DNA of 40,510 bases, taken from positions 1 through 40,510 of IMG/VR virus record IMGVR_UViG_3300040809_000936. The stretch is one strand, 5' to 3'. The notes beneath the pieces are model-generated. The model ran no database searches and was not told the origin of the DNA. It saw only the letters and a list, made by a program, of their open reading frames with translations. The DNA comes from a virus. This document shows positions 2,572-40,510 of the stretch, piece after piece. Position numbers and translations under genes: made by a program. Numbering within the stretch: the first letter of the stretch is position 1; the number at the start of each line of letters is the position of its first letter.

Positions 2572-3095
2572 ATAGATTAAAAAACCAAAGAGTTTACCTT
2601 GTTGGTGCTATGGACAGAGTTTCTGATAGAGGACAAGGATGGAGAGAGAATATAACTCCGTACCTTGAGAGTCTAGGAATTACTGTTTATAATCCACTCA
2701 AAAAGCCTACAGAACTTGGTAAAGAAAATGAGGATGCTTTTATTAAAAAGACTCATCTTAAAATAGGAAAGAATTACGATAAATTATCAGAAATGATGAG
2801 AACTGTTCGTAATGTAGATTTGAGACTTGTAGATATTAGCGATTTTATTATTGTTAATTTAGATCTAACAGTGCATCCTTGCGGAACATATGAAGAAATT
2901 TTTCTTGCCAACCGGCAGAAGAAACCTATAATAATTCATGTAGAGCAAGGCAAACAACAAACACCAGATTGGTTATTCGGATGTCTACCTCACCAGTTAT
3001 TTTTTAGTAGTTGGGATGAAATTAAAATTTACTTAAATAATATTAATACTTCTGATACTATTGAACACCTTAACCGATGGTACTTTTTTAACTAA
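2568..3095 (+). CDS. Nucleoside 2-deoxyribosyltransferase-like protein
   Basis: This 175-residue protein opens with VYLVGAMDR and contains VDISDFIIVNLD (88-99) and CGTYEEIFLA (105-114). These match the Rossmann-like nucleoside 2-deoxyribosyltransferase fold: an early glycine-rich strand, the D-x-I/V-V-x-N/D strand, and a GTxxE loop whose Glu (E110 by position) is the nucleophile. Members swap bases on deoxynucleosides or hydrolyse deoxynucleoside monophosphates. It could also be a related DUF4406-type protein of unknown reaction. It sits directly before GMP reductase with a 1-bp overlap, which suggests joint work on purine nucleotides. Confidence 0.65.
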   Translation: MNRLKNQRVYLVGAMDRVSDRGQGWRENITPYLESLGITVYNPLKKPTELGKENEDAFIKKTHLKIGKNYDKLSEMMRTVRNVDLRLVDISDFIIVNLDLTVHPCGTYEEIFLANRQKKPIIIHVEQGKQQTPDWLFGCLPHQLFFSSWDEIKIYLNNINTSDTIEHLNRWYFFN

Positions 3096-4213
3096 TGAGA
3101 ATCATAGAAGACAACAAGTTGGATTTTGACGATGTTCTCATTCAACCAAGAAGGTCTAAACTATTTTCACGGAAAGAAGTCGTAACCACGCGAGATTTTT
3201 ATTTTCCTAATGCTGACTCACAACTCAAAAAATGTTGTCCTTTAGTAGCAGCAAATATGGACACAACTGGTAGTTTTTATATGGCTAATACCATGTCTAA
3301 ACTCAATACTATGGTTTGTTTGCATAAACATTATAAGATAGAAGAGTATGTTAACTATTATAAGAATGATATATCTAGTAGTTCTAATTTTGTGTTTTAT
3401 TCTATCGGCACCTCTTCTAGTGATTTATCTAGGATGGATAAAGTTTTTGAAAAACTCAAAGCCTTTAGATGGCAACCACCAAACATTTGTGTAGATGTTG
3501 CAAATGGTTATTCTGAAAAGTTTATCAAAACTCTTATAAAAATAAGAGAAAAATATCCAAACAGCATTATTATGGCAGGCAACGTTGTTACGCCAGAAAT
3601 GACAGAACAACTTATAATGAAAGCTGGAGTAGATATTGTTAAAATAGGAATCGGTTCTGGTAGTGTTTGCACTACTCGTTTAAAAACTGGTGTTGGATAC
3701 CCACAATTAAGCGCTGTTATAGAATGTGCCGATGCAGCAAAACATTCTGGAGGATACATTTGCAGTGACGGAGGATGTAGAACTCCTGCTGATGTCTGTA
3801 AGGCGTTATGTGCTGGTGCTGATTTTGTAATGCTTGGCAGTATGCTTGCCGGAACAAATGAATGTGATGGAGAGTGGACTTATGAATTTTTAGCAGACAG
3901 TGGGGACTTAAAGTTTTGGCAACCTATAGACCCAGGATATGCAACAGAAAGACGTAAAGTTACATTGCAGTTTTATGGAATGAGTAGTAAAGAAGCACAA
4001 GATAAACATCATAACGGAGTAGCAGACTATAGAACTAGCGAAGGTCGTTGTATTCAAATTCCATATAAAGGACTCGCTGAAGATATTATAAAAGATATTT
4101 TAGGTGGAGTTAGAAGCTGTTGCACATACATTGGGGCAAATAAAATAGAAGATATGTCTCAAAAAACAATTTTTATCAAGGTTAAAAATACTCATAATAG
4201 GATATACGAATGA
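3095..4213 (+). CDS. guaC: GMP reductase (IMPDH/GMPR family)
   Basis: This 372-residue protein follows bacterial GMP reductase from end to end. It opens with DDVLIQPRRS, then has AANMDTTGSF (52-61), HKHY, VDVANGYSE (133-141), AGNVVTPEM, and the active-site loop GIGSGSVCTTRLKTGVGYP with C192 as the thioimidate cysteine. SDGGCRTP binds phosphate and ADYRTSEGR is the E-loop. The enzyme converts GMP to IMP and ammonia with NADPH. The fit is much better to GMPR than to IMP dehydrogenase, and no CBS domains are present. It is about 25 residues longer than E. coli GuaC, mostly an insert before QFYGMSS. All visible key residues are intact, so activity is expected. A phage-borne copy is unusual. Confidence 0.92.
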   Translation: MRIIEDNKLDFDDVLIQPRRSKLFSRKEVVTTRDFYFPNADSQLKKCCPLVAANMDTTGSFYMANTMSKLNTMVCLHKHYKIEEYVNYYKNDISSSSNFVFYSIGTSSSDLSRMDKVFEKLKAFRWQPPNICVDVANGYSEKFIKTLIKIREKYPNSIIMAGNVVTPEMTEQLIMKAGVDIVKIGIGSGSVCTTRLKTGVGYPQLSAVIECADAAKHSGGYICSDGGCRTPADVCKALCAGADFVMLGSMLAGTNECDGEWTYEFLADSGDLKFWQPIDPGYATERRKVTLQFYGMSSKEAQDKHHNGVADYRTSEGRCIQIPYKGLAEDIIKDILGGVRSCCTYIGANKIEDMSQKTIFIKVKNTHNRIYE

Positions 4214-25081: not shown

Positions 25082-27277
25082 ATGTCCGCACTTCAAGAAC
25101 TACAGAATTACACATTCGTTGCTAAGTACGCTCGTTGGATTGAAGAAAAACAAAGAAGAGAAACTTGGAAAGAAGCAGTTGAAAGAGTCAAAGGAATGAT
25201 GCTTACAAAATATGTCGATTATGATGTGAAAGAAGATATAGAATGGGCATATGATATTATGTATAAGAAAAAAGTTCTTGGAAGTCAAAGAGCATTACAA
25301 TTCGGCGGGGAGCCTATCCTAAAAAGACATGCCAAAATTTATAATTGCACAAGTTCTTACTGTGATCGGTTAAGATTTTTCCAAGAATGTTTCTGGCTTT
25401 TATTATGTGGAAGTGGTACTGGTTTCAGCGTTCAAAAACATCATGTTGCAAAATTACCAAAATTGCGACACGATCCACCAAAAGGTCGCGGGGTGAAATA
25501 TGTTATTGAAGATAGTATTGAAGGTTGGGCAGATGCTCTTGGTGTGCTTCTTACTTCTTACTTTGATAGACCTAGTGATGTTCGTTTCAAAGATTATCAA
25601 AATTGTAATATAGTATTTGACTACTCCCAAATACGTCCTAAAGGAACATCTTTAAGTTCTGGTGTTGGAAAGGCTCCTGGTTATGAACCTTTAGCCTTTG
25701 GACTAGAAAAAATTAGAACAATATTGGACAGATGTATTGCAAATAAACAAGAAAAATTAAGACCAATTGATGCTTATGATATTGTGATGCATAGTAGTGA
25801 TGCTGTTATTTCTGGGGGAGTTCGTCGTTCAGCATCACTTGCATTATTTAGTCCAGATGATGAAGAAATGGCTAAAGCTAAAACAGGTAATTGGTTCGTT
25901 GATAATCCCCAAAGAGGTAGAAGCAACAACTCCGCTTTACTACTAAAAGAGGAGACAACATATGAGGAATTTGCAAAGCTTATGGAGAGCGTCAAAGAGT
26001 TTGGAGAGCCTGGGTTTATTTGGAGCGAATCTAAGGACATGATTTTTAATCCATGTGTAGAAATCGGTATGTGGCCTGTTGATGAACTAACAGGAAAATC
26101 GGGATGGCAAGGATGCAACTTGTCTACAATCAACTGTTCTTCTCTTGATGACGAAGAAGATTTCTATGAGAGATGTCGTGCCGCTGCTATTATAGGTACG
26201 CTTCAGGCCGGCTTTACCAAACTAGAGTATCTAGGCAAAACTAGCGAAAATATCTTTGATAGAGAAGCATTGCTTGGGGTTAGTCTTACAGGAATTATGG
26301 AAAAGCACGATTTGGTTCTCAGTGAAAAAGTTCTCAAAAAAGGTGCAGCGATTGCTGTAAAAACTAATAAAGAAATATGCGAAAAAATAGGAATTAATCA
26401 GGCGGCAAGAGTTACATGCCTAAAACCAGAAGGCACTAGTTCGACAATGCTGGGTACTAGTTCTGGCATACATCCGCATCATGCTAAAAGATATATTCGT
26501 CACGTTCAAGCAAATAAAATTGAAGCCCCCTATAATTATTTTAAGAGCTATAATCCACAAGCGTGTGAGCCTAGCGTATGGTCTGCTAACGGAACAGATG
26601 AAGTAATTAAGTTTCCAATTGAAGTGCCAGATGGATCAAAACTTAAAAATCAACTACCAGCAGTAGAAATGCTTGATGTTGTTAAGAATACTCAAATTCA
26701 TTGGGTAAATTCTGGCAAAAATAAACAATTATGTACCCAACAATTCTTAAGTCATAATGTAAGTAATACTATTACTGTCAAACCCGACGAATGGGAAGAC
26801 GTAACAAAGTTTATTTACAAAAACAGAAGATATTATGCAGGAATAAGCTTGATTCCTCAAAGTGGAGATAAGGATTATCCCCAAGCTCCATTCACGACTG
26901 TTTATACAAGCAGAGAGATCGTTAAAGAATACGGAGATGCTTCTCTATGGTGTTCTGGGCTAATAGAGCTTGCTCTGCAAAACTTTAACAAAAATTTGTG
27001 GGCTGCTTGTGACTATGTTACTTTTAATCAAGCTAAATCAGATGATGATGAAGGTAAATTAAATTTTACAACTAAGATGAAGAATTTTGCTGGAAAATAT
27101 TTTGAAGGAGATATCAAGAGACTGACATATTGTATGAAAGATGTCTATAACTGGAAACTTTATTATGATCTCAAAGATAGTTTTAAGAAAGTTGATTACA
27201 CTCAATTATCAGAAAGCGAGGATAATACTACAGGCATAGAAGAAGTTAGTTGTGCTGGCGGCGCTTGCTTAATTTAA
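25082..27277 (+). CDS. nrdJ: Adenosylcobalamin-dependent ribonucleoside-triphosphate reductase (class II, monomeric)
   Basis: This 731-residue protein is close in length to the Lactobacillus leichmannii enzyme. It reduces ribonucleoside triphosphates to deoxy forms using a B12-derived thiyl radical. YNCTSSYC (C89 at the first redox cysteine) and CGSGTGFSVQ lie in the N half. NPCVEIG (323-329) holds N323, C325 and E327 of the active site, and GCNLSTINC and LKPEGTSSTMLGTSSGIHPH follow. The C-terminal SCAGGACLI carries the thioredoxin-linked cysteine pair. It needs no second subunit. It is the first large gene behind the consensus promoter and supplies dNTPs to the replication genes downstream. 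The host must make or import cobalamin. Confidence 0.93.
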   Translation: MSALQELQNYTFVAKYARWIEEKQRRETWKEAVERVKGMMLTKYVDYDVKEDIEWAYDIMYKKKVLGSQRALQFGGEPILKRHAKIYNCTSSYCDRLRFFQECFWLLLCGSGTGFSVQKHHVAKLPKLRHDPPKGRGVKYVIEDSIEGWADALGVLLTSYFDRPSDVRFKDYQNCNIVFDYSQIRPKGTSLSSGVGKAPGYEPLAFGLEKIRTILDRCIANKQEKLRPIDAYDIVMHSSDAVISGGVRRSASLALFSPDDEEMAKAKTGNWFVDNPQRGRSNNSALLLKEETTYEEFAKLMESVKEFGEPGFIWSESKDMIFNPCVEIGMWPVDELTGKSGWQGCNLSTINCSSLDDEEDFYERCRAAAIIGTLQAGFTKLEYLGKTSENIFDREALLGVSLTGIMEKHDLVLSEKVLKKGAAIAVKTNKEICEKIGINQAARVTCLKPEGTSSTMLGTSSGIHPHHAKRYIRHVQANKIEAPYNYFKSYNPQACEPSVWSANGTDEVIKFPIEVPDGSKLKNQLPAVEMLDVVKNTQIHWVNSGKNKQLCTQQFLSHNVSNTITVKPDEWEDVTKFIYKNRRYYAGISLIPQSGDKDYPQAPFTTVYTSREIVKEYGDASLWCSGLIELALQNFNKNLWAACDYVTFNQAKSDDDEGKLNFTTKMKNFAGKYFEGDIKRLTYCMKDVYNWKLYYDLKDSFKKVDYTQLSESEDNTTGIEEVSCAGGACLI

Positions 27278-32274: not shown

Positions 32275-33723
32275 ATGAATTTAGCAGATCCGTCGGCAGA
32301 AAGAGCGGTCTTAGCCGGTATATTTAATTATGGAGACGATGCCTATTTGGAAGTTTCTGACATATTGTCAGAATCTGCTTTCACTATAGATAGCAATGTC
32401 ATCATTTATAAGTGTCTGAAGAATCTTTGTGAAAACAACAGAGAAGTAGACTTCGCTTCTGTTCTATCAACAGCAGAAGAGTTAGGCGTTGCTTCCCTGC
32501 TCAATAAAAAAGAAGAAATACAGCACTTAAAAGCTGTTATTGCTTTTCCTGTAGGTTTTTCTAACATTAGAAAATTTGCTGGTAAAGTCAAAAAACTAGA
32601 GATTACTAGACTATTAATTAAACAGCTTGGGTTAGCTCAAGATAAATTATTAGAAATTAATGGAACAGAAACAATCGGTAATATTTTAAGTATTGCTGAA
32701 GATACTGTATTCAATTTTACAAATCTCTTAAGCGATAATGACGAAGCACCAAATCATATTGCCGATAATCTAGAAGAATACATCAAAGAACTGAAAGAAA
32801 ATCCTATAGATCAAGTGGGTATTCCTACAGGGTTTCCCATTTACGATCAATCAATAGGTGGAGGTTTAAGAAAAGGTACTGTCAATGTTATTGCTGCCAG
32901 ACCTAAGACAGGTAAGACTCTTTTATCTGACAATATGGGATACAACATAGCTGCTCAAGGTGTGCCTATTCTAAATATGGACACAGAAATGACTAAAGAA
33001 GATCATATTAATCGTATTTTAGCTATGATGACAGAAACAGAAATTAATCAGATAGAAACGGGTCAGTTTGGGGAAAATGCAGACAAAGAACATAAAATAG
33101 GAAAAGCTGTTGACAAATTAAAAGATACCAGGATTTTTCACAAGAGTATTGCTGGTAAACCTTTTGAAGACCAGTTAGGTATTATGAAAAGATGGTTAGT
33201 CAAAGAAGTTGGGTTAAATGATGACGGAACAGCGAAAGACTGTGTTATATTTTATGATTACTTAAAATTGATGGATACTAGTGGCATGACTCAAGACCTA
33301 AAAGAATATCAGGTCTTAGGTTTTATGATGACTCAACTTCACAACTTTGCAGTGAAATACAAAGTACCAGTTGTTGCGTTTATTCAATTAAACAGGGACG
33401 GGATTACAAAAGAAAGCACTGATACAGCAAGCGGTTCTGATAGAATTATCTGGTTATGTTCTAATTTTACAATCTTCAAGAGAAAAAGCGACGAAGAAAT
33501 AGCCGAAGATGGACCCAATAACGGAAATAGAAAATTAGTACCTCTTATCAGCAGACACGGAGGAGGACTAGACGATAATGACTACATCAACTGCAATATG
33601 AAAGGTTGGTGTGCCAAAATTACGGAAGGTAAAACTCGATTAGAATTGATAAATAATACCACCTCTAAAGACGAAGGGTTTGTAATTGATGACGACGAAA
33701 CTGAAAAAATCTCGTTCGAGTAA
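32275..33723 (+). CDS. dnaB: DnaB-like replicative helicase
   Basis: This 482-residue protein has a DnaB N-terminal domain from the start (ADPSAERAVLAGIFNYGDDA). The RecA-fold core carries Walker A ARPKTGKT (208-215), LNMDTEMTKEDHINRILAM, the Walker B-like strand CVIFYDYLKLMD, and the late HGGGLDDND region. It unwinds DNA ahead of the polymerase as a hexamer. It is longer in the spacer between the parts than minimal phage helicases. The primase gene starts inside its last 35 bp, a tight helicase-primase pair. Confidence 0.92.
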   Translation: MNLADPSAERAVLAGIFNYGDDAYLEVSDILSESAFTIDSNVIIYKCLKNLCENNREVDFASVLSTAEELGVASLLNKKEEIQHLKAVIAFPVGFSNIRKFAGKVKKLEITRLLIKQLGLAQDKLLEINGTETIGNILSIAEDTVFNFTNLLSDNDEAPNHIADNLEEYIKELKENPIDQVGIPTGFPIYDQSIGGGLRKGTVNVIAARPKTGKTLLSDNMGYNIAAQGVPILNMDTEMTKEDHINRILAMMTETEINQIETGQFGENADKEHKIGKAVDKLKDTRIFHKSIAGKPFEDQLGIMKRWLVKEVGLNDDGTAKDCVIFYDYLKLMDTSGMTQDLKEYQVLGFMMTQLHNFAVKYKVPVVAFIQLNRDGITKESTDTASGSDRIIWLCSNFTIFKRKSDEEIAEDGPNNGNRKLVPLISRHGGGLDDNDYINCNMKGWCAKITEGKTRLELINNTTSKDEGFVIDDDETEKISFE

Positions 33724-34846
33724 TGATCAGTTTAAACTAAAAATACTTTGTGATCTTTTATGCGATAACATAGAAGAACTACTAAATTATTTTGGTTTAG
33801 AGTACAAGGCTAATGAAAAAATGATAAGTATGTCTTGTCCAATACATGGAGGAGATAACCAATCAGCAATTAGTTTGTATTATACTGGAGATAGTTATAG
33901 AGGTAACTGGAAATGTAGAACCCATAATTGTGAAAAAGTATTTCAAGGCTCTATTATAGGTTTTATCAGAGGCGTCATATCTAATCAAAAATATAATTGG
34001 GTTACTGAAGGTGACCAATATTGTTCATTTAAAGAAGCGTTAGATTTTGCAACAAAATTTGTACAAAAAGATCTAAACAGTATTAAAGTATCAAATATAG
34101 ACAGAAATAAAAAAACATTCACAAGTCTGATGAACTATATTGACACAAACGACAAAAATGAAGAAAACAAAGTTAGCAGAAAAGTTATTCAAAAGAGTTT
34201 AACAATACCATCTACATATTTTATAGATAGAAATTATGCTGCAAATACTCTAGAAAAATACGATGTAGGACTATGCGATAATCCCAAAAAGCCCATGTAT
34301 AATAGAGCCGTAGTACCTATCTATGATAATAATTATCAATACATGATTGGGTGTACTGGAAGAAGCATATTTGAATCATGTAAAATTTGTGGAGCTTATC
34401 ATAACCCTTCTAGTTTCTGTCCGGAAGAAAATGACAGATGGAAATATTCTAAATGGAAGCACAGCACAGACTTTAAAAGCCAAAATTCTCTATATAATTT
34501 CTGGTTTGCAAAAGAACACATTTTAGCAAGCACCATAGCTATTATTGTAGAAAGCCCTGGTAACGTCTGGAGATTAGAAGAAAACGGCATTCATAATAGC
34601 CTAGCTATATTTGGTTCGTCTCTTAGCGACAGACAAAAGATATTGCTTGATTCAAGCGGAGCAATGAATTTAGTTATATTAACAGATAATGATGAAGCAG
34701 GAAGAAAAGCTGCAGAACAGATAAAAACAAAATGTCAAAATACATACAAAGTTTATATTCCTTCTTTTAGTGCCAGTGATATTGGTGAAATGTCAAGTGA
34801 ACAAATAGATAATGAAATCAAACCTTTTCTGGAGAATATAATATGA
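33689..34846 (+). CDS. dnaG: DnaG-like primase
   Basis: The protein has 385 residues from the ATG at 33689; a TTG codon directly before it is less likely. The zinc site is CHC2-like: C50-x2-H53 and C76-x4-C81. A second Cys/His group, CKICGAYHNPSSFCP, sits in the middle, as in several phage primases. The TOPRIM part has IIVESPGNVWRLEENG (the conserved Glu) and LVILTDNDEAG (the acidic DxD region). It makes RNA primers with the upstream helicase. It overlaps the dNMP kinase start by 4 bp. Confidence 0.88.
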   Translation: MTTKLKKSRSSNDQFKLKILCDLLCDNIEELLNYFGLEYKANEKMISMSCPIHGGDNQSAISLYYTGDSYRGNWKCRTHNCEKVFQGSIIGFIRGVISNQKYNWVTEGDQYCSFKEALDFATKFVQKDLNSIKVSNIDRNKKTFTSLMNYIDTNDKNEENKVSRKVIQKSLTIPSTYFIDRNYAANTLEKYDVGLCDNPKKPMYNRAVVPIYDNNYQYMIGCTGRSIFESCKICGAYHNPSSFCPEENDRWKYSKWKHSTDFKSQNSLYNFWFAKEHILASTIAIIVESPGNVWRLEENGIHNSLAIFGSSLSDRQKILLDSSGAMNLVILTDNDEAGRKAAEQIKTKCQNTYKVYIPSFSASDIGEMSSEQIDNEIKPFLENII

Positions 34847-35427
34847 GTATCATAGCTTTTGCTGGGAGAAAACAATCAGGTAAAACTACTTTGGCAACAC
34901 AAATAGTTAACTGGCTGTATGAATTAGAGGGATTAGAAGATCAAGCGATTGTTTACAATTTTGCTGATCCGTTAAAAAATGTTTGTATGGATATTCTTGG
35001 ACTAGGTTTTGAACAATGTTATGGTACTGACCAAGAGAAGAACGAACTCGTAAACTGTTATAAAAATGGTAAACAGATGACAGCACGAGAAGTATTACAA
35101 ATGGTGGGCACAGAATTCTTTAGAAGTATTCAGCACGATGTTTGGGCAGGGGCTACAATTCGTAAAATTCAACAAGACAACCCTCCAGTAGCTTTAATAG
35201 CAGATTGTAGATTTCCTAATGAGGTAGAAGCTGTTAAAAAAGCTGGTGGTGTTGTGATTAAACTAACAAGAAATTTATATAATTCAGATCATGCTAGCGA
35301 AACAGCTTTAGATCCTGAAAACTATGATCAAAATAATTTTGATTTAATAGTATATAACCAAAACATGACTATTGGTCAGCAATGGCAGGAAGTAATAAGA
35401 TGGATACTACAAAATAAAAAATTATGA
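34843..35427 (+). CDS. Deoxynucleoside monophosphate kinase
   Basis: In this 194-residue protein, IIAFAGRKQSGKTTLA is the P-loop (GRKQSGKT, 8-15). FADPLKN, REVLQMVGTEFFR and IADCRFPNEVEAVKKAGG match the dNMP kinase family of T4 gp1 type, and SDHASETAL is its usual late loop. It phosphorylates dNMPs from host DNA breakdown or salvage. It complements the class II ribonucleotide reductase in making dNTPs. Confidence 0.87.
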   Translation: MSIIAFAGRKQSGKTTLATQIVNWLYELEGLEDQAIVYNFADPLKNVCMDILGLGFEQCYGTDQEKNELVNCYKNGKQMTAREVLQMVGTEFFRSIQHDVWAGATIRKIQQDNPPVALIADCRFPNEVEAVKKAGGVVIKLTRNLYNSDHASETALDPENYDQNNFDLIVYNQNMTIGQQWQEVIRWILQNKKL

Positions 35428-36446
35428 TAATAACATACCTTAGAAGCTCAAGCTACGGAACACACAATATGTGTGAACAACAATACTTTATTGAGTATAA
35501 CTTAGGCTTAAGATCTCCGTCTAATCAAAAAGCCGACAAAGGAACTATAGTTCATAAAGTTATGGAAATATTAGCAGATATTTCTGTGGCAGTATCTAAA
35601 GGTCAGCCAACTATTGAGGACGAGATCTGTGGTGAAATTAATGTATTTGATCATAATGTTGAAAAAATCACTGATCAAGTTTATGAATATTATACTAGTA
35701 GATTTATCCATCATCAATGGAAGCCATTAGATCTTAAACATTGCAAGAAATGGGTTGAAAAAACTATAACTGTGCAAAACTGTAATTTTGATCCTAGAAA
35801 TCAAAATATCATACAACCAGAACAAAGATTTGATATTGAAATTAAAAAACCTTGGGCTCACTATAAATATAGTGAAGACTTAGAAGGTTATTTAGCAATC
35901 AAAGGAACAATAGATCTGATTGCTCAACCTAACCCCAATACGATTGAGATTATTGATTACAAAACTGGCAAAAGGTTGGATTGGGCTACAGGAGAAGAAA
36001 AAACTTTCAAAAAACTGGAAAAAGATCCTCAACTCCGCATGTATCACTATGCGGCAAGTGTGCTGTATCCCGAAATAGAACATGTTATTGTTAGTATTTA
36101 TTTTATTAATGATGGCGGTATTTTTAGCATGAATTACAATAAGAGTCAGATTCATGAAACCGAAGACATGATTCGTAGAAAATTTCAAGAAATTAAAAGC
36201 TGTACCAGACCAAGATTGAACAAAACTTGGAAGTGTAGTAAATTGTGTCATTTTGGGAAAAATTATTTTCCAAATCCAGAGATTGAATATAGAGATGGTC
36301 AAAGAACACCTCACGGTCTTCCTATGACAATATGTGAAGAAATAAAATACAGTATAGACCTTTTGGGAATGAAAGGAACAGTTGACAAGTATCAGCAAGA
36401 AGGCTATAATGTTGGAAAGTACAAAGCGCCTGGAACCACAGAATGA
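35424..36446 (+). CDS. RecB/Cas4-like PD-(D/E)XK exonuclease with four cysteines
   Basis: This 340-residue protein has the RecB-nuclease order: SSYGTHNMCEQQYFIEYNLG at the start, KGTIVHKVME, IKGTIDLIAQ with D164, and IEIIDYKTG with D178 and K180, then QLRMYHYAA. One cysteine near the N-terminus (C17) and three late ones (C271, C275, C304) match the layout of the 4Fe-4S cluster in Cas4 and AddB nucleases. It likely resects DNA ends for recombination or degrades host DNA. It is coupled to the kinase and polymerase genes. Confidence 0.82.
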   Translation: MIITYLRSSSYGTHNMCEQQYFIEYNLGLRSPSNQKADKGTIVHKVMEILADISVAVSKGQPTIEDEICGEINVFDHNVEKITDQVYEYYTSRFIHHQWKPLDLKHCKKWVEKTITVQNCNFDPRNQNIIQPEQRFDIEIKKPWAHYKYSEDLEGYLAIKGTIDLIAQPNPNTIEIIDYKTGKRLDWATGEEKTFKKLEKDPQLRMYHYAASVLYPEIEHVIVSIYFINDGGIFSMNYNKSQIHETEDMIRRKFQEIKSCTRPRLNKTWKCSKLCHFGKNYFPNPEIEYRDGQRTPHGLPMTICEEIKYSIDLLGMKGTVDKYQQEGYNVGKYKAPGTTE

Positions 36447-38323
36447 AGAAATATATACCATTACATTGTCATAGTCATTACAGTCTATTAGATGGTTTAA
36501 GTCAACCTAAACATATTGCTAAAAGAATTAATTCTATTGAAGCCAATGCTTGTGCTTTGACAGATCATGGTAATATAGCTGGTCACGTTCAATTTCATAG
36601 CACAATGAAAAAGAATGGCATCAAACCTATTCTTGGTTGTGAACTTTATGTTTGTGAAGACGATCCTTCTATAAAAACTAAAGAAAATAGTTCATTGAGT
36701 CACATGCTTGTGCTTGCTAAAAATTATAATGGTTGGCTTAATCTTATTCAGCTTGTCAGTGAATCTAACAAACCAGATTTTTTCTACCATAAACCGAGGT
36801 TAGATCTTGAAACATTATCAAATTTCGTTAAAAACAATCTTATATGTATTACTGGTCATCTTGGCTCTACCCTTTCTAATGCAATTTGTAGAGACAATAA
36901 GATTATTAGTGACTATTCAAATATTGGAGTTGCCTATGTAGATAGGCTCAAAGAAGCATTTGGTAAGGAAAATGTTTTCTTAGAATCACAACTCATGGAC
37001 CAAGAAAATAATCCTATTCAAAAAGAACTTTCTGGTGCTATTGAGGAGATTGCCCATAAATGTGGAGTAAAAGTAATCTGTACTCCAGACGCACATTACG
37101 CTAATAGAGAAGATGCAGACGATCAGAGAATACTTCTCTGTAACAATCTTAAAACTACTATGCCTGAAATTAGCAGGAAATTAAGTGTGGGAGAAAAAGT
37201 TCCTGTAGAATGTTTCTTTTCTTCCAATAATTTTCACATACTGTCACAAGAAGAAATCAATGAGCTTCATAAAGAAGAACACATTGAAAATACTAATCTT
37301 GTAAATGAAATGATAGAAGATTATGAGATCAACAGCAAACCAAAGCTTCCTCCGTTTAATTGTCCAGAAAATTATGATCCAGACGAATACTTGCGTCAGT
37401 TATGTAGAGACGGATGGAAACAAAAAATACAAGGTAAAGTAGATGTTTCTTTACACGGAAGTTATACGGATAGGATTAAATACGAGCTTAAAATTCTGCA
37501 AGGAGCGGGACTTTCGAGCTACTTTCTAATTGTTCAGGATATTGTGAATCATGTCAAAGAAAACAAATGGTTGCCTGGACCCGGTAGAGGAAGTGCTGCT
37601 GGGTGTCTCGTATCGTACCTTGTCGGCATTACTAGCATTGATCCCATTAAGTATAGCCTGTTATTTGACAGGTTCTACAACGCTGGTCGTAATACTGCTG
37701 ACCACATATCTATGCCTGATATTGACGTTGATGTCCCTATTGACAAAAGAGAAGAAATCATAGAATACATCAAGAATAAATATGGAAATGACAAGGTTAG
37801 TCAGATGATTACCTTTAATACTATCAAAGGAAGAGGAGCATTAAAGGATGTTTTAAGAGCTTATGGGAATGTTAGTTTTGAAGAAATGAATAAAATTACA
37901 AAGAATATTCCAGATGAAGCTAAAATTGCAGACGAACTTCAACAAATGAAAGATGACACTGGAGAAGCGTCAATTATTAGATGGGCTTTAGAAAACAACC
38001 CAGAAAAACTTAAGGAGTGGTGCTATATTGACGATAAAAATATAATGCAAGGTCCTTTGTCAAAAAGGTTTGAGCAGGCTATTAGATTAGAAGGAACTAA
38101 GTCTAATCAAAGTAAACATGCTGCAGGAATTGCTATTGGTGCAAACCCTTTAAAAGAAGTTTGTCCTATGATTTATGATTCAAAAAATAAACAAATGATT
38201 GCCGGTATGGAAATGCAAGACTTAGAGAGTATTGGTGTTATAAAATTTGACATTTTGGGTATCGCAATGCTTGATAAAATTATGACAGTTCAACATTTAC
38301 TACAAGAAGGAGTTATACAATGA
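36443..38323 (+). CDS. dnaE: DNA polymerase III alpha-like protein, ending after the palm domain
   Basis: This 626-residue protein has a PHP domain (HCHSHYSLLDG, LTDHGN, TPDAHYANREDADDQ) with its metal ligands. The palm has GPGRGSAAGCLVSYL, PDIDVDV (425-431; D426 and D428 match the first catalytic pair) and VIKFDILGIAML (D603, the third aspartate). It stops 20 residues later, whereas bacterial DnaE continues for about 500 residues with fingers, HhH and OB domains. No continuation is present in this window. It may be half of a split polymerase or a shortened enzyme. An epsilon-like exonuclease lies close downstream. Confidence 0.9.
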   Translation: MKKYIPLHCHSHYSLLDGLSQPKHIAKRINSIEANACALTDHGNIAGHVQFHSTMKKNGIKPILGCELYVCEDDPSIKTKENSSLSHMLVLAKNYNGWLNLIQLVSESNKPDFFYHKPRLDLETLSNFVKNNLICITGHLGSTLSNAICRDNKIISDYSNIGVAYVDRLKEAFGKENVFLESQLMDQENNPIQKELSGAIEEIAHKCGVKVICTPDAHYANREDADDQRILLCNNLKTTMPEISRKLSVGEKVPVECFFSSNNFHILSQEEINELHKEEHIENTNLVNEMIEDYEINSKPKLPPFNCPENYDPDEYLRQLCRDGWKQKIQGKVDVSLHGSYTDRIKYELKILQGAGLSSYFLIVQDIVNHVKENKWLPGPGRGSAAGCLVSYLVGITSIDPIKYSLLFDRFYNAGRNTADHISMPDIDVDVPIDKREEIIEYIKNKYGNDKVSQMITFNTIKGRGALKDVLRAYGNVSFEEMNKITKNIPDEAKIADELQQMKDDTGEASIIRWALENNPEKLKEWCYIDDKNIMQGPLSKRFEQAIRLEGTKSNQSKHAAGIAIGANPLKEVCPMIYDSKNKQMIAGMEMQDLESIGVIKFDILGIAMLDKIMTVQHLLQEGVIQ

Positions 38324-38502
38324 CAAAAGTTACTTTTGACAAGGTTGCTATTGGTTCCACATTCACATATAAAAATGGAACATATGTAAAAACAGAGACT
38401 AGAAAAGTTAGTTGTTGTAAATTCAATAACGCTTACTCTACAACAGACAAGAACACAAGAATCGGAATCAGGCCTAATGAAGTAGTGGAGATTGCAGAGT
38501 GA
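38320..38502 (+). CDS. Small conserved phage-type protein (Cys pair, beta-rich)
   Basis: This 60-residue protein contains VAIGSTFTYKNGTYVKTETR and KVSCCKFNNAY and ends in NEVVEIAE. The same order occurs in the protein at 724-954, and similar short proteins are frequent in phages, function unknown. It lies between the truncated polymerase and the exonuclease, overlapping both by 4 bp. It is too short to supply missing polymerase domains. Confidence 0.65.
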   Translation: MTKVTFDKVAIGSTFTYKNGTYVKTETRKVSCCKFNNAYSTTDKNTRIGIRPNEVVEIAE

Positions 38503-39182
38503 ACTATAATAAAATTTGTGTGTTTGATTTTGAAACAGATGGAGTCAATCCAGAAAAATGTAGCCCAGTTCAATTAGCTGCTATAATGGTAGATCCTATC
38601 AATTTAGAAATCATTCCTAATTCTGAATTTAATTGTAACTTTAAACCAGAATGCATGGAAGAAGATCCAAACTTTGAGTATAAAACAGATATTTTAGATT
38701 TCCACGCTAAGGTTAAAGGATGTTCTAAAGATGATGTTTATAAAGAATGGCAAGAGTATCCTAAACAAAGCGTTGCTTGGAAAATGTTTGTTGACTATTT
38801 AGATAAGTATCATAGCAGAAACAGCAAAAAAAGCCAGTTCTCCGCTCCCATTGCTGCTGGCTATAATATCTATAGATTTGATCTTCCTATTATTGAAAGG
38901 CTTAGTCGGAAAAATAAGAATGTTAATAAGGAAGGAACTTCTAATATATTTTTCCCAAGAGATGTTATCGATAGTATTAATTTAGTTTATTATTGGTTTA
39001 GCCACAATAATGAATTGAAAAGTTTTAAATTAGATACGTTAAGAGATTATTTTGGTATTACAAAAGACGGCGCTCATGATGCCATCAAAGATGTTAGAGA
39101 TACAGCAGAAATTATAATTAGGTTTTTAAAGCTGCACAGAAATCTTGCGGAAAAAATTAAGTTTAAGGGATCTTTTAAATGA
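38499..39182 (+). CDS. dnaQ: DnaQ-like 3'-5' exonuclease (DEDDh)
   Basis: This 227-residue protein has all exonuclease motifs. Exo I is VFDFETDG with D10 and E12, Exo II is AGYNIYRFDLPII with D128, and Exo III is HDAIKDVRDT with H193 and D198. It probably proofreads for the Pol III-like protein upstream, like the epsilon subunit. The start is GTG at 38499 with GGAG at 38487-38490. A long insert (about 40-110) separates Exo I from Exo II. Confidence 0.9.
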   Translation: MNYNKICVFDFETDGVNPEKCSPVQLAAIMVDPINLEIIPNSEFNCNFKPECMEEDPNFEYKTDILDFHAKVKGCSKDDVYKEWQEYPKQSVAWKMFVDYLDKYHSRNSKKSQFSAPIAAGYNIYRFDLPIIERLSRKNKNVNKEGTSNIFFPRDVIDSINLVYYWFSHNNELKSFKLDTLRDYFGITKDGAHDAIKDVRDTAEIIIRFLKLHRNLAEKIKFKGSFK

Positions 39183-39601
39183 GTAAAAAACTTGTGGCAA
39201 AAACAATAGCAAGAACACTTGTATATCAAATCTTGCTATTATGGACTGGATTTTCTATTGGTTTTATGATTAATCCAGAATATTGGGGTAATCGTGCTCC
39301 AGTGGTTGAAAGATCTATACGGAATATTTTTTATCCTATTAAATATGATGAAAGAGTAAAAGAATTTTGTATTAACATTGGCAGATCTAGAGTATTTTTC
39401 TCTTTGCCGGAAGGAGCTAATAATTTCAAGATTATTAAAGATGATATGGTTGGTGAGGAACAATATATAGCGACTTATCAATATGTGTTAGACGGAGAAG
39501 CTATTTTAGTGAAAGATTTTACCTCTAAAATCAACTGGAAACCGTGGGAATTTGATTACCCAACCCCAGATGAATTGAAAGCGCAATTTCCTGAATCCTA
39601 A
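39179..39601 (+). CDS. Single-pass membrane protein
   Basis: This 140-residue protein has a membrane helix at about 13-32 (TLVYQILLLWTGFSIGFMIN) behind a basic N-terminus. A soluble domain of about 105 residues follows, rich in aromatic residues (INWKPWEFDYPTPDELKAQ near the end). It would be anchored with that domain either inside or outside. No family is recognised. It is the last gene of the replication operon and is followed by a 99-bp gap with its own promoter. Confidence 0.6.
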   Translation: MSKKLVAKTIARTLVYQILLLWTGFSIGFMINPEYWGNRAPVVERSIRNIFYPIKYDERVKEFCINIGRSRVFFSLPEGANNFKIIKDDMVGEEQYIATYQYVLDGEAILVKDFTSKINWKPWEFDYPTPDELKAQFPES

Positions 39602-39624
39602 CACAATTCTAACATAAAATCTGG

Positions 39625-39652
39625 TTGAATCTTCTTGCCGATTGAGTATTAT
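39625..39652 (+). promoter_or_regulatory. Candidate promoter of the DUF1559 gene
   Basis: TTGAAT (39625-39630) and TATTAT (39647-39652) are 16 bp apart. Start of transcription would be near 39659, about 40 bp before the ATG, and AAGGA (39689-39693) is the ribosome site. This gives the DUF1559 gene separate control from the replication operon. Confidence 0.6.
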
Positions 39653-39700
39653 ATGGTTAACAGGCTATTTTTTTACCCACCTAACATTAAAGGATTAATT

Positions 39701-40510
39701 ATGAAGAAAAAAGGTTTTACTCTCGTTGAACTATTGGTTGTTATTGCTATTATTGGTGTTCTTGTTGGTCTTCTTCTTCCAGCAGTACAATCCGCTAGAG
39801 AAGCCGCAAGACGAGCAAATTGCATGAGCAATATGCGTCAGTTTGGTTTGGCCGCACACAATGTGGAAAATAGCACTCAAAAGTTTCCAGCAGCATGTTG
39901 GACTATTGATACTATTGATCCATCTATAACCCCAATTGCTCCTTCAGATAATAGAGCAAGAACAGAGCGATCGTGGAGAGTTGATCTTTTATCATACATG
40001 GAAGAATCAGCACTAGCAGATACTTATGATAAGAATTTACATTGGTGGGAAGGTCCAAACCTTTTTGTAGCACAACAACAAGTCAAAGTATTTCAGTGTC
40101 CTTCTAATACTTACAATGGAGAAGAGTGGACTAATTTTCCAGACGGCCCATCAAGAGACAGTGACTCTACTGCACCAGCACTAAACACTGGTGTGCCTTT
40201 TGGCCGTACAGACTATGAAGTATTTACTGGAGTAAAGAATAAGGTTCTTGATCCAGATCCATATGCTAACAAGGGACCAGAAGCAGATGGTGCGTTGATT
40301 AAGGACCGTGTTACTACTATGGGTCAATTTAGAGATGGAACAAGCAAGACTTTTCTTGTAGCAGAATGTGCATCGAGACCAACTTGGGTTAAGGGTACTC
40401 CAGCACAGGTTGTTCCAGATGTTATTAATCAGTGTCTTGGTTGGGCAGATAGCCTTGGTCCATTTAAGCTTCATCCTATTGATGCTAATGGAGATAAAGG
40501 TGCTGCTAGA
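39701..40510 (+). CDS. DUF1559-family prepilin-like protein (3' end beyond window)
   Basis: The frame stays open for 270 residues to the window edge. The N-terminus [18 protein letters not shown] is a type IV prepilin signal: cleavage after G5, with Glu at mature position 5. It is followed by [20 protein letters not shown], the usual DUF1559 (SBP_bac_10) entry. [19 protein letters not shown] and the later [15 protein letters not shown] are also typical. These proteins are present in many copies in Planctomycetota and very rarely elsewhere; function is poorly known, probably secreted or pseudopilus-related. By rough hand count of single lines, GC is about 40-48% against about 30% just upstream, a sign of recent transfer or of a junction with host DNA. 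Confidence 0.9.

Follow-up and report, generated by a model that had tools for sequence, protein, structure and literature searches.

The IMG/VR virus contig IMGVR_UViG_3300040809_000936 (positions 1 to 40,510, one strand; hereafter the window) is a phage fragment. It holds a replication block that runs in a single direction and comprises genes for a RecA/UvsX-like recombinase, a DnaB-like helicase, a primase, a deoxynucleoside monophosphate kinase, and a PD-(D/E)XK nuclease, followed by a DnaE open reading frame (ORF), a 60-amino-acid (aa) ORF, and a DnaQ-like exonuclease gene. The DnaE ORF is the subject of this analysis. It encodes only the N-terminal half (DnaE-N) of the alpha subunit of DNA polymerase III (Pol III), and the C-terminal half (DnaE-C) is found as a separate gene in related phages. 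The features from this ORF to the contig end are as follows.

36443..38323, + strand: DnaE-N, 626 aa, DnaE N half with the PHP and palm/thumb of Pol III alpha (ORF, Pfam, PHROG, AlphaFold2 [AF2])
38320..38502, + strand: 60-aa ORF, retained by most relatives in the same place, after DnaE-N and ahead of the exonuclease gene (ORF list, relatives' maps)
38499..39182, + strand: DnaQ-like 3'-5' exonuclease gene (Pfam RNase_T; PHROG 192, "DNA polymerase exonuclease subunit")
39179..39601, + strand: 140-aa ORF, which in the closest relatives is an insertion after the exonuclease gene and ahead of DnaE-C (ORF maps)
39635..40510, + strand: prepilin-like ORF (DUF1559), cut off by the end of the contig (Pfam, ORF maps)

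Judged by its motifs, DnaE-N carries the DnaE-type signature of a PHP domain followed by a palm with three catalytic aspartates. Its Pfam matches are PHP (residues 7 to 183) and DNA_pol3_alpha, the palm (315 to 606, full model), and nothing else, and it covers positions 41 to 616 of 1,190 in PHROG 405. The catalytic residues D426, D428, and D603 do not vary among 44 relatives; PHP site residues D17, H42, E67, H87, D216, and H218 are conserved, and H8 and H10 nearly so. An AF2 model (predicted local distance difference test score, 87) resembles solved Pol III alpha, matching 2hpi in Foldseek with an E value of 9e-47 and a template modeling (TM) score by query of 0.76, and the protein is thus predicted to have that fold. 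The fingers, HhH, and OB regions that a DnaE-type polymerase would bear on the same polypeptide are absent, and a profile search found the fingers domain (PF17657) nowhere in the entire 40,510-base record. These results agree with an initial annotation, made from the sequence alone, that had described an intact PHP and palm with all three aspartates and a lack of fingers, HhH, and OB. The stop lies 23 residues past D603. The initial annotation had argued against a recent frameshift and had pointed to 4-bp overlaps with the next genes, which are present at 38320 to 38323 and 38499 to 38502. Window positions 32988 to 39077 are matched at 99.7% by L002, a contig of separate metagenomic origin, which has the identical 626-aa protein and stop. 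This independent contig rules out a sequencing error at the stop, and no error restoring a frame past 38323 was found.

The same arrangement holds across the relatives, of which we collected 139 distinct contigs (counted by name over two relative searches), about 136 with a complete N-half end. The N half was fused to the C half in none of the 139. Complete N halves all end within about 20 residues of an LDK motif, a few residues past the helix after D603. All 80 contigs recruited by the C half (fingers, HhH, and OB) carry a separate, unfused N-half ORF upstream, with a tail of 11 to 19 residues after LDK, and relatives up to 85% identical have the same N half and a separate C-half gene. DnaE-C is about 535 aa long and contains fingers (PF17657) and HHH_6, plus an OB domain detectable by Pfam in some members; it covers positions 614 to 1077 of PHROG 405 and so tiles with the N half. 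In most relatives it lies about 850 to 900 nt downstream, past the 60-aa ORF and the exonuclease gene, so that the exonuclease gene separates the two halves; in the 80 contigs the usual spacing is about 860 nt.

In the closest relatives, L006 and L003, DnaE-C lies 3.5 to 4.5 kb downstream of DnaE-N, with the 140-aa ORF, DUF1559, ThyX, and other genes inserted ahead of it. DUF1559 stands between the exonuclease gene and DnaE-C in L003, L006, and L008; it is also present in L004 and L007, contigs that end ahead of DnaE-C. The window likewise has the 140-aa ORF and, after it, DUF1559, where the sequence stops, 2.2 kb past DnaE-N. From this gene order, the DnaE-C of the window's own phage should lie past base 40510. 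Because the window is a phage fragment and not a bacterial genome, the missing half was sought only in relatives; the last bases of the window had no match among viral contigs by which to extend it. The proposal of the initial annotation that a second gene may encode the other half is therefore borne out by the separate C-half gene of the relatives, whereas that gene was not seen in the window's own contig. A search of bacterial genomes gave only four matches. Three of these, at 59 to 69% identity, were in contigs of metagenome-assembled genomes labelled Flavobacteriales, Chitinophagia, and Alphaproteobacteria; the two that were inspected show the same split, and such contigs are probably misbinned phage.

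The N half aligns to residues 3 to 564 of Escherichia coli alpha and to Taq up to residue 635, and the alignments of the C half start at residue 588 of the E. coli protein and residue 646 of the Taq protein. By this alignment the cut is in the palm-fingers linker, a domain border at about E. coli DnaE residues 565 to 588, a place across which unsplit phage and bacterial DnaE run as continuous chains. In the window's clade, DnaE-C starts with about 30 extra residues that include three invariant cysteines (C8, C10, and C35; CxC...C), a segment found neither in unsplit homologues nor in phage phiT1 (see below) in the same alignment. Cyanobacterial DnaE is likewise encoded by two genes, which are cut at Y/CFNKSHS and rejoined by an intein; the cut in the window's clade falls about 170 to 190 residues earlier and is intein-free. 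Pfam and alignments revealed no intein domain or intein residues at the N/C cut in either half, and the IntN and IntC of a cyanobacterial-kind split-intein DnaE thus appear to be lacking there. We take the cyanobacterial site to be at about E. coli DnaE residue 754, and the initial annotation was right that the two sites differ. No Rfam intron was found at the gathering threshold in the window, L008, L009, or L017.

Both halves are, as estimated from sequence divergence, under strong purifying selection. For the N half, the ratio of nonsynonymous to synonymous substitution rates (dN/dS) was about 0.05 to 0.08 against L003, L004, and L006 (approximate values, dS being near saturation); for the C half, the proportions of nonsynonymous and synonymous differences between L003 and L006 were 0.10 and 0.76. 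Distance matrices of the N and C halves correlated with an r of 0.89, and those of the two halves with the exonuclease, a separate gene, with r of 0.87 and 0.86. Since the exonuclease correlates nearly as well as the halves do with each other, the matrices indicate co-inheritance or shared ancestry only and not contact, and we dropped the correlation as proof of interaction. Each of 23 contigs of 105 to 231 kb carries one N half and one C half, the profile being in two pieces in two of them because of inteins. In these 23 contigs, Pfam detected no PolA, PolB, second DnaE, or beta clamp. The absence of another polymerase is suggestive, and a complete second DnaE, the finding that the initial annotation had set against its idea of a split enzyme, did not turn up.

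Taken together, these data support the split-polymerase idea, and we consider it highly probable that this large, mostly uncultured phage clade uses a permanently two-gene DnaE-type polymerase of which DnaE-N is the larger subunit. DnaE-N would supply PHP, palm, thumb, and all three catalytic aspartates, and DnaE-C would supply fingers, HhH, and OB. Because there is no intein or known intron at the cut, the most likely form is a polymerase of two subunits joined non-covalently: the halves would be translated independently, dock along the palm-fingers boundary, and form one active enzyme for replicating the phage genome, and the neighboring DnaQ-like exonuclease would be its likely proofreader. 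The clade-specific CxC...C segment may help docking. Several points weigh against this interpretation. Docking of the halves and their joint polymerase activity are predictions from sequence; the C-half model of L003, which matches 4iqj in Foldseek with an E value of 9e-22, has only moderate global confidence (predicted TM score, 0.62); no C half of the window's own phage was found within its 40.5 kb by profile search; and none of the 23 long contigs is rated complete, so that missing sequence could hold another polymerase.

In some relatives the enzyme is broken at further points. In L008 (15967 to 18850), L062 (12384 to 15343), and L081 (12730 to 15677), the C half is rebroken at FNK|SHS, a few residues beyond the position of the split intein in cyanobacteria, with an apparent split intein and a free-standing endonuclease gene between the parts. 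Pfam Hint/intein matches were obtained for L008, and the endonuclease genes were matched separately. Counting the N half, the polymerase of these three phages would be encoded by three genes. In L151 (2041 to 5148), it is the N half that is broken, at GPGRG|SAAG, with an apparent split intein and a free-standing ORF between the parts. The fingers of L011 (12738 to 15092) and L047 (12732 to 15131) are interrupted at RPG|C by a contiguous intein about 250 aa long, supported in L011 by Pfam intein and HNH matches. We infer from these features that splicing takes place in these relatives. In 2009, Dassa et al. reportedly described genes fractured by split inteins together with endonucleases that stand free; that arrangement is matched in L008, L062, L081, and L151 inside one polymerase half, in contrast to the N/C cut of the window's clade, which has neither intein nor endonuclease and was never of the split-intein kind in the contigs examined.

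The apparent split inteins of L008, L062, L081, and L151 suggest that trans-splicing probably operates on this enzyme within the clade, and they speak for the possibility that the two halves are themselves joined into one chain after expression by an unrecognised route, be it RNA or protein trans-splicing. We nevertheless regard this as improbable. Only about 23 residues follow D603, with no intein fragment at the N/C cut; DnaE-C lacks an Asn-plus-nucleophile junction; there is no Rfam intron; and the gap is filled by conserved genes with their own starts. Slightly less credible still is the idea that DnaE-N has been repurposed as a stand-alone PHP/nucleotidyltransferase protein outside any polymerase. 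Its PHP site looks intact, and modeled alone it reaches good confidence, but the catalytic aspartates are invariant, and the C half nearby, present one to one, holds the only fingers domain in the phage.

The lack of a C half in the 40.5 kb seen would also fit a phage in which DnaE-C has been lost and is supplied instead by the host or by another phage infecting the same cell. This we hold to be very unlikely, given that L003 and L006, which share the local gene order, have DnaE-C farther from DnaE-N than the window extends. A truncation artefact, whether sequencing error, frameshift, or decaying gene, has next to no probability. The window's identity to L006 steps up at about 39143, which might betray a chimera, but this lies 800 bases past the stop, and the sharing of that stop by L002 and by the whole clade refutes an artefact. 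A more speculative extension of the two-subunit reading is that the subunits are held together non-covalently by CxC...C as a docking element replacing the linker, and that this state descends, through intein loss, from a gene once fractured with a split intein. Such descent may hold because related phages are still fractured at other points of the same enzyme, although we consider this extension as a whole possible but doubtful.

A second split lineage consists of Rossellomorea phage phiT1 (PV767480; gp20 and gp18), a cultured phage, and plasmid p_ACL01CRY2 (LC810155), both of which have DnaE in two ORFs, of 573 to 575 and 469 aa. As in the window's clade, the cut is in the palm-fingers linker, another gene lies between the halves (a 49-aa ORF in phiT1 and a nucleoside deoxyribosyltransferase-like gene in p_ACL01CRY2), and there is no intein; unlike it, these proteins are only about 33% identical to those of the clade, and their C half has no CxC segment. 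The phiT1 ORFs are both annotated as DNA polymerase III subunit alpha, and those of p_ACL01CRY2 as hypothetical. In a tree the two lineages group together, though weakly supported (76), and by sequence both one ancient split and two origins are possible. No phiT1-like N half was found in viral contigs. Other phage DnaE proteins checked were mostly single chains of 1,028 to 1,183 aa, the exceptions, such as those of Bacillus phages Jayan and KLEB27-3, being broken elsewhere.

Replicative polymerases encoded by two genes without inteins are known in the two-subunit PolB of Methanothermobacter thermautotrophicus and the split gp43 of some T4-like phages, but these are family B polymerases, whereas that of the window's clade is a Pol III alpha. 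Phage MIJ3 has a split PolB with an intein (PMC6892783), and OM43 phages have split polymerases (PMC10580990). A parallel within Pol III alpha is the minimal split enzyme proposed in group 2.2 jumbo phages beside a family B polymerase, in which the catalytic module is likewise divided between two proteins that, in the authors' view, reconstitute the enzyme; these are encoded by distantly located genes and form a minimal core without other Pol III domains (PMC7824862). A description of this sort, with only core catalytic and template-binding domains and a PolB in the same phage, does not appear to fit the window's clade, which has PHP, palm, fingers, HhH, and OB and no PolB in the 23 long relatives. 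Searches of the openly accessible literature, to which subscription journals mostly do not belong, turned up no account of the split DnaE of this clade. Split polymerases as such are known, and an intein-free, clade-wide split of a full-size Pol III alpha appears undescribed in searchable papers. Such an enzyme would demonstrate that full-size replicases of the bacterial type can function over long evolution as two separate proteins, with no need for protein splicing, and its point of division is a natural one at which Pol III alpha might be cut to reconstitute or regulate it. Within the clade, different points of one enzyme are variously unbroken, interrupted by a contiguous intein, broken with a split intein, or broken without an intein, which makes it possible to study gene-breaking evolution within one family.

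Among the neighboring genes, the 60-aa ORF had no PHROG match; its AAGGAG ribosome site lies within the last codons of DnaE-N, and its product bears a conserved SCC motif. The ORF is apparently missing in L072 and L075, where the gap is only 695 nt. The identity step noted above, from about 0.77 to about 0.97 against L006 and L007, falls at the border of the exonuclease gene and the 140-aa ORF (stretch 39143 to 40510) and may mark either a recent recombination event or a chimeric assembly close to where the contig stops. Prepilin-like DUF1559 genes lie inside the phage replication region in the window (39635 to 40510), L003 (13978 to 14961), and L008 (12725 to 13999), the last of which adds a DUF1501 gene. 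A literature search found no paper linking DUF1559 with phage. We take both families to be typical of Planctomycetota, which hints at the host. Genes for IMP dehydrogenase, ribonucleotide reductase, and DnaB-like helicases are kinds that host well-known metagenomic split inteins, and the window encodes an IMP dehydrogenase-like protein (by reading; 3095 to 4213), a class II-like ribonucleotide reductase (25082 to 27277), and a DnaB-like helicase (32275 to 33723), all three apparently unbroken.
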